Shown here: in pieces, positions 3,463-18,527 of the stretch | Layout of the letters: each line of letters starts with the position of its first letter | How positions within the stretch are numbered: the first letter of the stretch is position 1 | Origin: Pseudomonadota bacterium | Lineage (GTDB): Bacteria > Bdellovibrionota > Bacteriovoracia > Bacteriovoracales > Bacteriovoracaceae | Direction: 5' to 3' | DNA length: 23,194 nt | Assembly: GCA_023432655.1 (NCBI GenBank) | Contig: JAEYUK010000329.1 | Coordinates: 1 to 23,194 of the forward strand | Notes under the pieces: generated by a model | Told to the model about the DNA's origin: nothing | Seen by the model: the letters and a program-made list of their open reading frames with translations, nothing else | The model's database searches: none | Made by a program: the position numbers and the translations under genes

Positions 3463-5445
3463 TTAATTACTTCCACCCAAACCGAAGCCTCCACCTGATC
3501 CACCAAATCCGCCACCCTGAAAGATAAGGCTTTCTTGGACTGTTGGAATTTGTAGTCCCATATTTGGCGTAGTCATATAGCCGTTCATTGGGCCAGTGAA
3601 CATCATGCCACTACCTGGATTAGTGTAGTGACTTAAACGAACAGGGAAGGTAGGGTTTTCAACCTGCCCAGTATATTCGTGCCAACTGAATGGGTTTTGA
3701 AAATGCTGAAGATGGTTCGCCTGAACAGCATTTAACCAACGCGCCACTTTTTTTTGTTTATCAGATAAGGCATTAGCACTCAGTAACGAATTTATATTGT
3801 GAATGTTCTGGAGCAATTCTTTGCGCGTTTTCTTGGAAAGGTTTTCCTTATTTGGAATCCAAACGGGAATACCGTTTTTGGCCACCGAATCTTTGATCGA
3901 CTGATGAGAAATTCTTTGTTGTTCGATGGCAACCTCTGTATTTTTCACAGATTCTCTCAAGCTACTAACAACCTGAGCAATATTCTCTTTAACGTATTTG
4001 GCATTTTGACTAAAGTACCGGTGATTCGAAACCGCTTCCATGAGCTTAGTTAATTTTTCCTGATCAGCGGCCGAAGGATTCGATTGCGTCCCAATGTAGG
4101 TTCCTGTTTCATCAACCATATTTTTAATGTGAGAATAGGCTGGATCCTTTAAAAGCTTATCAAGTTCTGCTTGGGCAGCATTGGCCTGGTTTTGGGCTTC
4201 AGTGACTAAAGCTTCTGGATTCTTCTCAACGTTTTCGAGATTTCTTTTCATTCCTTCCAATGAGTCCTCACTGCTCTTAATGGATTCCGCCATGGATTTT
4301 TCCATCGAGGTGGGATTAAGTTCACTGAGGATGGCCTCGGCTTCTGCCAGGTCGTCCTTGTAATAACTCGCAAAATTTTCTTTTACGCCGTGATAAAAAA
4401 GTAAATTAAAAACAGCGTTCACATCAAGATCAACTTCAAGTTGTTCCACACAATGTTCTAAACGTCGTGCCTTATTATATAACTGCCGAAGGGCCCCTTG
4501 CGTATTGAGAGGCGGTTCGAGTTCACCTGAATCATATTTCTGGAATTCACGAGCGATGGCTTCTACTTCAGATTTTTTCTCTATACATTCTTTAGTATTG
4601 AAGCTTTTGAATTTTTTTCTCGAGCCATCGTTCCCATAATAAAATTCCTTTTCATCATCACAGTTAAGATACATGGCCGCATGTAGCTGATTAAGTGCCT
4701 GGAAATTGTTCTTGGTATAATTGGTAAGTTTGCTCTCATCGGCTTGGCTTAAAAGCTGCTTTTCTTTTAGCAGGATATCAGAGAGGTATTGGTGTCCCTG
4801 GGGTCGGTCAGCAAGGGGAGCAGACCCGTCATATCCAGCGATGATTTTGGCCTTGGGAAAGATATTTTTCCAGGCGTAAATTTCTTTTTGTACTCCAGTA
4901 TAGCAGCCCAAAAGGAGTACTGAAGAAGTTTCATTGATGTCGCCGTAATCCTTCATAATATCTTGAAGCTCATGGCGACCAAATCCACCTTTGTTTCCTC
5001 CGAACTCACCACCTCCGTCATGACCTGAGATCGTGAAAACCTGAAGCTTACCATTTTTTGACTTTATTTCATCTAGGGCTTCACGGATTCCTTGATCAAA
5101 AGGTGGTTGGGAATCAACAAAGGCATTCATTTTACTTGTAGCTTCTTGTAAAGCGGCAACCTCGTTAGCACAATTGCCTTTAGCTCTCGTGCATCTTTCA
5201 ACCCGTTTGGAAGCTTCGTTGAAAGGACCAGTGAATTTTCCATATTCTTTATAGTTCTTAGGAACGACCATGAGATGTTCACCGCGCTCACACGCGGCTT
5301 TCCTGGAAGTTTCAATTTCAATTTCTGAGTTATTGGTATCAACAAAAAGCATGACCTTAGACGGATCAATCTTTTTATTACAGGCCGGCTGGGCCATTAA
5401 GGGTAAAGAAAACAGACATCCCAAGGTCAGAATAATTTTTTTCAT
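3463..5445 (-). CDS. Secreted caspase/clostripain-like (clan CD-type) putative cysteine peptidase
   Basis: A 660-residue protein with a clear signal peptide (cleavage near LMAQ, residue 19). Residues about 30-225 contain hydrophobic strands followed by a His motif, FTISGHDGGG (His142), and 39 residues later a Cys motif, SVLLLGCYTG (Cys181). This order and spacing (strand-H-G/D ... strand-xxC) is the hallmark of the caspase/clostripain/gingipain/CHAT fold, so His142/Cys181 form a plausible catalytic dyad. After the Cys comes IIAGYDGSAPL, a reasonable next strand and pocket loop. Residues about 340-560 are highly charged and helical, probably coiled coil. The last 20 residues are a Gly-rich low-complexity tail. 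A small exported gene lies 2 bp upstream, so the two are co-translated. I do not recognise a named family; peptidase activity and substrate are inferred. A non-peptidase caspase-fold protein is the alternative. Confidence 0.6.
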   Translation of the reverse strand: MKKIILTLGCLFSLPLMAQPACNKKIDPSKVMLFVDTNNSEIEIETSRKAACERGEHLMVVPKNYKEYGKFTGPFNEASKRVERCTRAKGNCANEVAALQEATSKMNAFVDSQPPFDQGIREALDEIKSKNGKLQVFTISGHDGGGEFGGNKGGFGRHELQDIMKDYGDINETSSVLLLGCYTGVQKEIYAWKNIFPKAKIIAGYDGSAPLADRPQGHQYLSDILLKEKQLLSQADESKLTNYTKNNFQALNQLHAAMYLNCDDEKEFYYGNDGSRKKFKSFNTKECIEKKSEVEAIAREFQKYDSGELEPPLNTQGALRQLYNKARRLEHCVEQLEVDLDVNAVFNLLFYHGVKENFASYYKDDLAEAEAILSELNPTSMEKSMAESIKSSEDSLEGMKRNLENVEKNPEALVTEAQNQANAAQAELDKLLKDPAYSHIKNMVDETGTYIGTQSNPSAADQEKLTKLMEAVSNHRYFSQNAKYVKENIAQVVSSLRESVKNTEVAIEQQRISHQSIKDSVAKNGIPVWIPNKENLSKKTRKELLQNIHNINSLLSANALSDKQKKVARWLNAVQANHLQHFQNPFSWHEYTGQVENPTFPVRLSHYTNPGSGMMFTGPMNGYMTTPNMGLQIPTVQESLIFQGGGFGGSGGGFGLGGSN

Positions 5446-5447
5446 GA

Positions 5448-5777
5448 CTATCTCTTATCTTTAAGCATTTTTATTTGTGATTCTTTTAGTTCTGGATATT
5501 TTTTCTTTAATTGAGGGATGGTTTTGGAGGCCAATTCCATGAAGAAAATGTCCTTCTTGAGTTCATCCCAGCTTTCAATGGCCGGAACCCCACTTAAGAC
5601 TTCTTCTCTTAAGTCCCGATCGGGTAGAGCGCTTTGGGCGGTACTTCCTTGGTGGACTTTAAAATTCCCCTCTAGAGTTTTCCCGTCGATATTCTCATCC
5701 AACAGTAGAACCTGGGCTTTTTGGGCCGCGGTCATGTTGGAGATGCCAAGTAAAAGAAAAGTCAGAATAAATTTCAT
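5448..5777 (-). CDS. Small exported protein paired with the caspase-like gene
   Basis: A 109-residue protein with a typical signal peptide (MKFILTFLLLGISNMTAAQ, cleavage around residue 19). The mature part is about 90 residues, strongly charged, with a predicted helical, Lys/Glu-rich C-terminal half (ELASKTIPQLKKKYPELKES). It has no cysteines and no motif I recognise. Its stop codon is only 2 bp from the start of the caspase-like gene, so the two are very probably one operon and translationally coupled. Small secreted proteins encoded next to a secreted protease can be inhibitors, pro-region-like chaperones or partners; which applies here cannot be told from the sequence. Confidence 0.8.
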   Translation of the reverse strand: MKFILTFLLLGISNMTAAQKAQVLLLDENIDGKTLEGNFKVHQGSTAQSALPDRDLREEVLSGVPAIESWDELKKDIFFMELASKTIPQLKKKYPELKESQIKMLKDKR

Positions 5778-5862: not shown

Positions 5863-5904
5863 AAAAAAAGGGACCTCACGCATCCGGCGCTAGTCCCTTT
5901 TTTA
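5863..5904. terminator. Intrinsic terminator hairpin
   Basis: Perfect 11-bp stem AAAAAAGGGAC (5864-5874) / GTCCCTTTTTT (5893-5903) around an 18-base loop. It lies 20 bp past the stop of the minus-strand gene at 5924 and has A/T-tracts on both sides. It should end that transcript before the next operon begins at 5777. Confidence 0.8.
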
Positions 5905-5923: not shown

Positions 5924-6313
5924 TTAAGCAGAGTGACAGTTGAGGGGGTACGTCATCTCATGCCCTTTAGGGGACGTAATGGAAAGGTAATCGTTTACTT
6001 CGGAAAAAGCGTTGGCGTTTTTCACATTAATCCGATGTTTGTTGCCGTCAATGTAAAGGGTTTTAGAAAAACCCAAATGTTTTTTATGAGTTCGAACGGA
6101 TTCGGACCCAATGGATGAGATGGAGCGATTGATGCCAGCTTCATCTTCTTTATGAAAAGAAATCCGGTCCTCTTCAATGGTGAAAGACTTTTCACCAAAA
6201 GCAGTAGAACAGACAATGGCTCCAGTGGCCGCATGAGAGTTAAAAGCATGGATCATGAGAATAAGTCCGAAAAATCCCAGGACTGTTGAAAGTGATAATG
6301 TTCTGTTTTTCAT
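5924..6313 (-). CDS. Small exported two-cysteine protein, function unknown
   Basis: The chosen start at 6313 gives 129 residues. It is preceded by AGGGGGAACC, a good ribosome site, whereas a start 9 codons further upstream has none and would put charged residues before the signal peptide. The protein begins MKNRTLSLSTVLGFFGLILM and is cleaved near HAFNSHA (residue 28). The mature part is about 100 residues with beta-strand-like alternation and exactly two cysteines, one near the mature N-terminus (GAIVCST) and one near the C-terminus (MTYPLNC), probably a disulfide that closes the fold in the periplasm. No family recognised. Transcription ends at the hairpin just downstream. Confidence 0.8.
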   Translation of the reverse strand: MKNRTLSLSTVLGFFGLILMIHAFNSHAATGAIVCSTAFGEKSFTIEEDRISFHKEDEAGINRSISSIGSESVRTHKKHLGFSKTLYIDGNKHRINVKNANAFSEVNDYLSITSPKGHEMTYPLNCHSA

Positions 6314-6447
6314 AGGTTCCCCCTGTATATAAGTTTTCAAAGACGCCTCGTCCTTGCCGCCTTCCCTCGGGGACTAGTAATACAATCCTGATGCCAAGAA
6401 TTGCCCATTAAAATCAAGTGGTTAGAGAAAGAGAAGAACAGAGGGGT

Positions 6448-15931: not shown

Positions 15932-15968
15932 TTGGAATAAAATCTCGGTCCGGTCTAGAATATTTCTA
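15932..15968 (+). promoter_or_regulatory. Possible promoter for the phospholipase-like operon, predicted leaderless transcript
   Basis: TTGGAA (15932-15937, 4 of 6), an 18-bp spacer and TAGAAT (15956-15961, 5 of 6). The expected start, 7 bases after the -10, is the A of the ATG at 15968, which has no Shine-Dalgarno sequence. Confidence 0.45.
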
Positions 15969-16438
15969 TGCATATACTCACACTTCTTTTTGTAAGCACC
16001 TTTGGTCTCGTGGCCCTGGCAGAGACATCTGTTCCATCTGATTTTAAAACAGATTACTGCACCAATTACCCGGAAGGGCCCAAAGAAGATCCGAGTGCCT
16101 GGAAACATTGTTGTTTGAAGCACGACATGTATTTTTGGGCGGGAGGATCTAAGCAAGATCGTTACGATGCTGATCTTGAACTCAAAAACTGCATCGTAGA
16201 CGCTGGTTATCCAAGACAGGCGAGGATCATGTATAGCGCAGTCAGGATGGGGTCATATTCTCCTGTAAAGTACCCTGATCGAAGATGGGGCAACGGCTGG
16301 AAGAATAGAGCAGAATTTAAAGCTCTTTCATTAGAAGAAATTCAAAGTATCAAAGCTGAATTAGATTCTGGCTATAAATACATCTCGGATGATCTTAAAA
16401 GTAACTTCCTCTCAGACCTTTTAAAACGTAAGAATTAA
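15968..16438 (+). CDS. Secreted phospholipase A2-like protein
   Basis: A 156-residue protein with a signal peptide (MHILTLLFVSTFGLVALA, cleavage about residue 18). The stretch WKHCCLKHDMYFWAGG holds CCxxHD at 48-53, the active-site signature of secreted phospholipase A2 (Cys pair, catalytic His52, metal-binding or supporting Asp53). It is followed by RYDADLELKNC, where an Asp and Cys are also expected on the second active-site helix. The C-terminal 70 residues (RMGSYSPVKYPDRRWGNGW and beyond) are not from classical PLA2 and I do not recognise them. The likely action is hydrolysis of phospholipids outside the inner membrane. The classic Ca2+-binding glycine loop is not obvious, so activity is uncertain. 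The next gene starts 1 bp after the stop, forming a two-gene operon with an acylase-family hydrolase. Confidence 0.7.
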   Translation: MHILTLLFVSTFGLVALAETSVPSDFKTDYCTNYPEGPKEDPSAWKHCCLKHDMYFWAGGSKQDRYDADLELKNCIVDAGYPRQARIMYSAVRMGSYSPVKYPDRRWGNGWKNRAEFKALSLEEIQSIKAELDSGYKYISDDLKSNFLSDLLKRKN

Positions 16439-16439
16439 T

Positions 16440-18527
16440 ATGATTTTTGTTTTCATCTCTCTCTTTCTTTTTTCTGCTCAAGCAGAAACTTCATTCTCCT
16501 GTAATGCTCAGTATGATGATTTGAATATCACCAGGCAGGTGACTGAATCCACTGAACATTTCTATTATTGTTTTGGATATCATCATGGAAAAGACCGTGC
16601 GTGGGAGATGGATTATTTTCGGAGAACTGGTCAGGGAAGAAATTCCGAAATTCTCGGCTTTAATCAATTGAAAGCTGACCTTATGATGAAGCTTCTGAAT
16701 CTCGAAGCTCTTTCAAAGAATATATGGGAGAGTTTCGAAGGCGAAAAGAAAATCATCCTTGAAAAGTATGCCGAAGGGGCCAATGAAGGATTTAAAATAG
16801 GGGCGAATGCTACTGAATTCAAAAAGTTTAACTTCACTCCGGAAAAATGGAAACCAGAGCACACGATTTTAGTCCTGCTTCTGCAATCTTTCGACCAGAC
16901 CCGAAAGACTTTTATGCGGGACTATGACGAAGAAAAAAATAAGGAACACTGGAAAGAAAAGGCGGAAGAACTTTTTAATGAGGATCATATGCCTTGGGAC
17001 AATACGATCCTGAAGGAAGGCGAGTATGAAGTTGCATCTTCTGATCTTCCAAAGACAACTTTAAACTCACGGTCTCTTAAGTTGTGGTCTGAGTTTCCCA
17101 CAGTCTTTGGTCTTGAATCCGGTTCAAATAATTGGGTTGTCAGTTCCGCAAAATCTAAAACCGGCAATGCTCTCCTTGCAAACGACCCCCATTTAGATTT
17201 AAAGACTCCTCTGTTTTGGTACTGGGTAAATTTAAAATCCCCAGAAGGTCGGGTGTTAGGAGCGAGTGTGCCGGGAGTGCCAGTCGTTGTTTCCGGTACA
17301 AATGGTAACGTCGCTTGGGGACTTACGAACTCCTACTATAACTCTGCAGATATCATGGCGATCAAAAATCTTCCCTCGGAGAAGGTAGAAGTCATCTGGC
17401 CCCGAGTGGATATCAAACTCTGGTTTTTTAAAATCCCATTCTTTTTTAAGAGTTTTGAACGATTAAAATCAGGGCACCCTGTTCTTCCTCTTGAAACAGA
17501 GCTTAATGAGAAGCTGGCCCTCAGGTGGGCCGGTTATAGTCTTAAGGCCCATGATTTTTATCCAATGTTTGACCTCTTTAAAGGGCAAAACGTCAGTGAA
17601 ACTCATTCTGTTATCTTGAAGGTTGGTGTTCCTTCCTGGAATTTTGTCTATGCTGATAAGGCCGGAGAAATTGGCTATGGACTTGTGGGGAAGACTTATA
17701 AAACGATCGGTAAAACTCCGCTTGGAATTCCTCTCGTCTCATTAGAGGAATTTGAGAGGGAAGAATTCTTAGAACCTCATGAAAGACCCTCTCTCTTGAA
17801 ACCGGTACGACATTATATTTACTCCGCCAATAATCGCCATTGGCCTACAGACGCAAAGTTTTATGGTGGCAGAGGCTACAGTGAATCTTTCAGAGGATTT
17901 AGAATTGATGAAATGCTTCAAGCTCCTCAGGACATAGATAGCTTCAAAACTATTCAATGCGATAGGGAAGCGGTGGATGCGAGATTCTTTTTGCCCAAAC
18001 TCCAAAAATTGCTAGATCTTCCTGAGTTTAAATACTGGGATCGACTGGCCTTAGATCAATCCAGAGTTATGCCACTCTACCGACGCTTAATGGATCTCAT
18101 GATGAAGGAGTGGAAAGTGAATGAATATGCACTCTATAGACTCCTTGATCAATTGAACGACCAGCAGGTTAAAGAGTTGCAAGGTTTCCATCAACTGGCC
18201 CTTGCCGACATTGGAGAGAGAAACTGGAACGAAGTTTTATTTTTGAACTTTCCTCATATGTCTAAGTCGGAAGCATTAATCTTTTCTCCAGTCATTCCGG
18301 GGGTGGGAGATAAGCATTCGGTCAACCCAGGAACTTCTAAATGGAATGAAGAGAAAAAGATTTATGAGCACTACTCGGGCGCTTCCATGCGTTTAATCAT
18401 TGAGATGGGAGAAGTTCCAAGAATCTTTTTAAGTCTTCCAGGTCTTAACCGTTTTTACGATCAACAACCGCCTTTTTCTCCATGGGAGGAGTGGCGTCGT
18501 TGTGATTATCGGGAAGTTGTTTTTTAG
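16440..18527 (+). CDS. Penicillin-acylase-family (S45) Ntn hydrolase, exported
   Basis: A 695-residue protein with a short signal peptide (MIFVFISLFLFSAQA, cleavage about residue 15). The family's N-terminal chain features are recognisable in FGYHHGKDRAWEMDYFRR and GRNSEILG. The autoproteolytic junction is ESG/SNNWVVSS, making Ser229 the new N-terminal nucleophile of the beta chain. This is followed by ANDPHLDLKTP and the SGTNGNVAWGLTN region that forms the oxyanion site. The C-terminal part has HSVNPGTSKWN and YSGASMRLI before the usual final tryptophan-rich segment. Members hydrolyse amide bonds of penicillins, acyl-homoserine lactones, N-acyl lipids or peptides; substrate here is unknown. 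Being 1 bp behind a phospholipase-like gene suggests a lipid or acyl-amide substrate, but that is inference. The TAG stop overlaps the stop of the convergent TM2-like gene. Confidence 0.9.
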   Translation: MIFVFISLFLFSAQAETSFSCNAQYDDLNITRQVTESTEHFYYCFGYHHGKDRAWEMDYFRRTGQGRNSEILGFNQLKADLMMKLLNLEALSKNIWESFEGEKKIILEKYAEGANEGFKIGANATEFKKFNFTPEKWKPEHTILVLLLQSFDQTRKTFMRDYDEEKNKEHWKEKAEELFNEDHMPWDNTILKEGEYEVASSDLPKTTLNSRSLKLWSEFPTVFGLESGSNNWVVSSAKSKTGNALLANDPHLDLKTPLFWYWVNLKSPEGRVLGASVPGVPVVVSGTNGNVAWGLTNSYYNSADIMAIKNLPSEKVEVIWPRVDIKLWFFKIPFFFKSFERLKSGHPVLPLETELNEKLALRWAGYSLKAHDFYPMFDLFKGQNVSETHSVILKVGVPSWNFVYADKAGEIGYGLVGKTYKTIGKTPLGIPLVSLEEFEREEFLEPHERPSLLKPVRHYIYSANNRHWPTDAKFYGGRGYSESFRGFRIDEMLQAPQDIDSFKTIQCDREAVDARFFLPKLQKLLDLPEFKYWDRLALDQSRVMPLYRRLMDLMMKEWKVNEYALYRLLDQLNDQQVKELQGFHQLALADIGERNWNEVLFLNFPHMSKSEALIFSPVIPGVGDKHSVNPGTSKWNEEKKIYEHYSGASMRLIIEMGEVPRIFLSLPGLNRFYDQQPPFSPWEEWRRCDYREVVF

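Follow-up and report, generated by a model that had tools for sequence, protein, structure and literature searches.

A candidate caspase-fold peptidase and its co-encoded small partner, both exported-looking, in Bdellovibrionota

What would a caspase-like protein that looks exported be doing beside a small exported-looking protein in a lineage of predatory bacteria? The question is raised by two reverse-strand genes, here named BIG and SMALL, on contig JAEYUK010000329.1 (assembly GCA_023432655.1, Bacteriovoracaceae), of which the analyzed stretch of 23,194 nucleotides (nt) is referred to as the window. SMALL (5448..5777) encodes 109 amino acids (aa) and lies 2 bp upstream of BIG (3463..5445; 660 aa), with bases 5446-5447 separating its stop codon from the BIG ATG; these coordinates from the initial annotation were confirmed. 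Both proteins begin, as judged by eye, with a signal peptide of the Sec type, which in BIG covers about residues 1-18 (5392..5445), and both are probably exported. The best overall explanation, to which we assign a probability of roughly 55%, is that BIG is a clan CD peptidase held in check by SMALL as its dedicated partner. SMALL would be made first, from the same message as BIG and by coupled translation, would bind BIG in the periplasm or outside the cell through its conserved helical domain, and would keep it restrained, as an inhibitor alone or as inhibitor and chaperone in one, until its activity is called for. BIG itself would be a cysteine peptidase of clan CD, exported and probably stabilised by disulphides, with a caspase fold and a His142/Cys181 dyad.

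A protein search with BIG, which scored only the 7997 candidates sharing most words, returned 136 relatives at E <=0.001, and organism names and UniRef names were taken from 120 of them. The named organisms among the relatives listed are Peredibacter or Bacteriovoracaceae, from the phylum Bdellovibrionota, and two relatives among the matches listed are labeled 'Peptidase C80 domain-containing protein' and 'Clostripain'. The residues singled out as catalytic in the initial annotation are in place, His142 in the motif SGHDGGG (codon 5020..5022) and Cys181 in LLLGCYTG (codon 4903..4905). Among 121 aligned sequences, the His142 column holds H in 119 of the 119 and the Cys181 column holds C in 120 of the 120 sequences with a letter there. 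In a divergent set of 27 members, with identity to the window BIG down to 19%, only ten columns are invariant (A51, P62, S140, G141, H142, C181, W192, G204, C332 and L348). Both dyad residues belong to these ten and persist to such low identity, thus the motif is more than a chance occurrence. The fetched loci gave 54 distinct BIG open reading frames (ORFs) or pieces, of which 52 cover at least one dyad column and 48 cover both. Both residues are present in 47 of these 48, the sole exception being L110 with E in the His column and H adjoining, and the Cys181 column is C in all 50 sequences that cover it. Cys332 (codon 4450..4452), with a possibly structural role, is likewise C in all 48 covered sequences. 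BIG relatives vary in length, and shorter ones such as P0049 (522 aa) are known. At one locus (L055 1485-3255, genome G248), a single in-frame TGA divides the BIG frame between the parts with His and Cys, which may reflect a pseudogene, an error or recoding.

The hallmark of clan CD is a six-stranded caspase-like sheet with conserved helices (PMC4357240). Such a sheet is found in the predicted BIG model, both in the order of strands and helices assigned by DSSP and in the structural matches over residues 27-265 (4651..5367). Strand 133-140 is followed by H142 and strand 171-179 by C181, which places the two predicted catalytic residues at strand ends, His at that of strand 3 and Cys at that of strand 4. 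A caspase-type fold with a His142/Cys181 dyad, the alpha/beta arrangement proposed at the outset, is therefore supported on the predicted model; of the outcomes named beforehand as refuting, neither a different fold nor an unconserved dyad was found. The long coiled-coil region that had been claimed appears in the model as long, coiled-coil-like helices at residues 378-524 (3874..4314), and the Gly-rich tail (residues 643-660, 3466..3519) falls in the low-confidence C-terminal end of residues 614-660. The top structural match of BIG is a SAVED-CHAT chain (8tl0); legumain chains are also among its matches, and a GPI transamidase chain is among those of the co-folded pair described below. Transamidase or ligase activity is a property of some enzymes of the legumain type and of the GPI transamidase, and these matches would also fit a BIG that uses its dyad mainly for transamidation or ligation rather than proteolysis. 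We regard this as improbable, and consider BIG likely to be a peptidase.

No Pfam or NCBIfam model matched the window BIG above the cut-off and no Pfam model did so for ten of its relatives, and the BIG family was found under no model of either collection. In the same eleven proteins, C14 (PF00656) gave no match at E up to 1, C11 clostripain (PF03415) and CHAT (PF12770) no Pfam match, and no Pfam model of legumain C13, clostripain C11 or C80 was recovered. When 33 and 27 members of the family were scanned, the matches were scattered, with each matched model in at most three members (25 of the 59 families of the 33-member scan were listed). PDB sequence searches yielded weak matches only for BIG (E > 0.05) and nothing for SMALL, whose Pfam matches are scattered, each in at most two members. 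PADLOC gave one weak coiled-coil match, a viral structure search gave none at E <=0.001, and Rfam gave none. Among the literature matches listed, which are the first part of several longer lists and include few subscription journals, no title describes the BIG/SMALL family, a result that does not prove that no description exists.

A possible kinship to C14 emerged from comparing profiles. A BIG profile (residues 22-300, divergent alignment) was compared with profiles from 13 of 14 C14 (PF00656) loci and 13 of 14 C11 (PF03415) loci of the same phylum, where one empty C11 row was dropped. With the C14 profile BIG reached a score of 34.2 (E 0.00043 for a single comparison), versus 15.5 for the reversed C14 profile and 22.3 for the best of 150 shuffles. 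The alignment is in register, SGH142 being matched to the SGH of C14 and Cys181 to its cysteine. The C11 profile matched just 12 columns, all at strand 1 and away from the dyad, with a score of 17.0 compared with 18.0 for its reversed form; since C14 against C11 was itself undetected (15.4), BIG may still be related to C11. BIG thus resembles the C14 caspases and orthocaspases of clan CD in predicted fold, dyad position and profile-aligned SGH and Cys motifs, but differs from them in lacking a Pfam C14 match and in having a signal peptide, a large added helical region and a separate small partner. With legumain C13, clostripain C11 and C80 it would share clan CD, and the two UniRef names point there; the C11 profile gave no match over the dyad. 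CHAT proteases act in intracellular defence; BIG and its ten relatives differ from them in the missing PF12770 match, and PF12770 was found in none of 97 genomes of the phylum.

For SMALL, 19 relatives were found by the single sequence and 36 by a divergent alignment. The protein is variable in its N-terminal part and conserved in the LPDR..R stretch and helical domain that come after it, with WDELKKDIFFM...KYPE as the core in close relatives. In a set of 28 divergent members, D76 and Y94 never vary and R57, D71 and P95 hardly do; the window SMALL contains no cysteine. BIG was found in 19 of 145 relatives of genome G001; across its phylum 64 of 368 genomes carry it, a number that counts weak matches near E 0.001 that are possibly chance. 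The BIG family is widespread across the phylum yet not universal. A total of 58 SMALL matches were found in 45 of the 368 genomes. The pairing count included all 58 SMALL places and 82 of 102 BIG places, the 20 omitted being second pieces of genes already counted. Fifty-two of the 58 SMALL matches have a BIG match no more than 2 kb away on the same strand (SMALL being upstream in 47 cases and downstream in 5), and BIG is also present in 42 of the 45 SMALL-bearing genomes (Fisher p 2.5e-35), so the co-occurrence that the initial annotation had suggested examining does extend across Bdellovibrionota. SMALL occurs without BIG in three genomes, G169 (a weak match), G019 and G023; the SMALL-like genes of the last two (L107 and L106) are at loci where no BIG was found. 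A search of genome contigs with one protein returned one locus.

The spacing of the two genes is consistent with coupled translation. Stop and start codons overlap by four bases at L007, L021, L022, L011, L024, L013, L014, L018, L016, L051, L053, L059 and L061, and a gap of 2-3 bases is present at L001, L003, L004, L005, L006 and L050; the order SMALL-BIG-SMALL-BIG occurs in tandem at L003/L022 and L007/L021. Relative to L001, nonsynonymous divergence is 0.14 for BIG and 0.07 for SMALL, and synonymous divergence of SMALL is saturated. Coupled synthesis, a mostly upstream position and frequent pairing would fit equally well with a SMALL that activates BIG as a subunit, or helps it as a chaperone to fold or be secreted, and does not inhibit it. 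Against this, several distant BIGs have no recognizable SMALL, which implies that they fold without it or with an unrecognized one, and we judge such a role somewhat unlikely.

The pair was also modeled as one chain. The L001 genes are in frame and three bases apart, so that reading the SMALL stop as Gly joins them for folding. The alignment had 82 rows (4 fused, 58 BIG and 20 SMALL) after removal of seven distant SMALL rows and of the four SMALLs most similar to L001. The mean predicted local distance difference test (pLDDT) was 85.7 and the predicted template modeling score (pTM) 0.76, neither of which carries information on the interface. Residues 51-109 of SMALL (5451..5627 in the window gene, with confidence taken from the L001 orthologue) are helical and confident, with 10-residue means of 86-97, and residues 1-50 are weak (means 47-69), with short strands at 21-25 and 39-43 of low confidence. 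CHAT proteases cleave a partner protein, and by analogy SMALL could be the substrate of BIG, cut to free a signal or effector piece. The top structural match to a SAVED-CHAT chain would agree with this, as would a variable N-terminal part followed by the conserved LPDR..R and helical domain; however, the near-invariant Arg57 lies within a confident helix of the co-fold and would make a poor protease site, and we find cleavage of SMALL unlikely. Binding of BIG by SMALL is probable; that SMALL restrains the enzyme is put forward more tentatively, at slightly less than even odds.

Several observations weigh against a peptidase restrained by SMALL. Foldseek with BIG gave no match at E 0.001 (best 0.0052), the hhalign probability for BIG against C14 is just 34%, and among the three C14 subsets, with scores of 25.5, 26.5 and 21.7, the lowest falls inside the range of the shuffles. 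Cys332 shares the invariance of Cys181, so invariance by itself is no proof of catalysis. Among BIG matches of at least 850 nt, SMALL is beside 38 of 50, and 12 have no recognized SMALL. At least three of these 12 (G072, G328 C91 and G327) begin at the end of a contig or extend past it. Ten such loci (L096-L105) were inspected again without a SMALL being found, L099 and L100 leaving their contigs on the 5' side, and in G085 a 78-aa exported-looking ORF, unrecognized by the SMALL profile, overlaps the BIG start. SMALL may thus not be required by those BIGs that lie away from contig ends. Pair distances of SMALL and BIG are correlated (r 0.82 over 36 pairs, with 0.32 as the best of 2000 permutations), a relationship confounded by species descent, and the co-fold scores are silent on how the two proteins meet. 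The genes around the pair give no hint of a substrate, and its sole tie to predation is the host lineage. Of the initial interpretation, the predicted caspase fold and the conserved dyad are supported, as is the co-occurrence of the two genes, and the inhibitor or chaperone role and the use on prey or envelope are still proposals.

Restraint of a secreted cysteine peptidase by a dedicated polypeptide is known from gingipain and its propeptide, staphopain and staphostatin, and SpeB and Spi, and SMALL would work in a similar way by analogy. SMALL differs from these in being a protein of its own, probably exported and from a family that has no name, and its inhibitory action is a prediction. We know of few caspase-fold enzymes that are located outside the cell and have a distinct partner dedicated to them. 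As a tentative proposal, BIG and SMALL might represent a new family of clan CD with its centre in Bdellovibrionota, whose exported caspase-fold protease is controlled in trans by an exported, co-translated protein from a family that is also new. Such a protease and its gatekeeper, outside the cytoplasm and in tandem copies in some lineages, would serve predation or envelope remodelling. If true, the pair would illustrate a further mode of protease control, with BIG as a candidate for a cysteine peptidase that predatory bacteria secrete. Cysteine proteases occur in the secretome of Bdellovibrio bacteriovorus linked to prey damage (PMC11003981), and these are not known as members of the BIG family; one of them, Bd3070, is listed there as a cysteine protease but called an amidase in PMC11656739.

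The layout further recalls the hit locus of B. bacteriovorus, where the small exported Bd0108 neighbors the larger exported Bd0109 (PMC4267844 and PMC3818213), and the window pair could in principle be its Bacteriovoracales form. Bd0109 is reported as an RHS-repeat protein beside pilus genes, and Bd0108 as carrying a CXXC motif (PMC4267844), which the cysteine-free window SMALL cannot have. For the window BIG, Pfam gave no RHS match at E up to 1 and the predicted fold, caspase-like plus helical, is a different one; no pilus genes were recognized by eye around the pair. Identity with the hit locus, which we consider extremely improbable, was dropped on the RHS make-up of Bd0109 against a caspase-like BIG, a separation made from published descriptions rather than sequences.

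Upstream of SMALL, a hairpin followed by a T-run (5866..5901, reverse strand; -18.7 kcal/mol, z -3.3) sits between it and the preceding gene (5924-6340) as a possible terminator of the latter. SMALL and BIG may therefore form their own transcription unit. A pattern scan, which does not list this hairpin, found no terminator at the SMALL/BIG junction and, on the strand of SMALL, no promoter ahead of that gene; promoter-like sites numbered 4 against 7.0 expected from shuffles. The preceding reverse-strand gene encodes a small exported-looking protein without a Pfam match (listed at 138 aa, with 129 aa in L001), which is also beside the pair in L001, L010, L065 and L067. Flanking genes differ between genomes, and those recognized by eye in the window encode a leucyl-tRNA synthetase, an exported protein of 258 aa and a regulator of the LysR type. 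In genomes G016 and G015, the ORF just upstream of BIG (L023 537-1286 and L012 28-648) is papain-like by eye; PF00112 matched the L023 ORF only, below the cut-off (E 0.15), and not that of L012.

Two further exported-looking proteins are encoded in the window. The reverse-strand gene at 20193-20951 matches Gln_deamidase_2 above the cut-off (PF18626, E 2.1e-10), and its product is likely, by sequence, a secreted protein glutaminase. On the forward strand (15968-18527), a 156-aa protein with a phospholipase-A2-like HCCLKHD motif by eye, and no Pfam match to E 0.01, is encoded directly before a protein of the penicillin amidase family (PF01804, E 1.2e-93).
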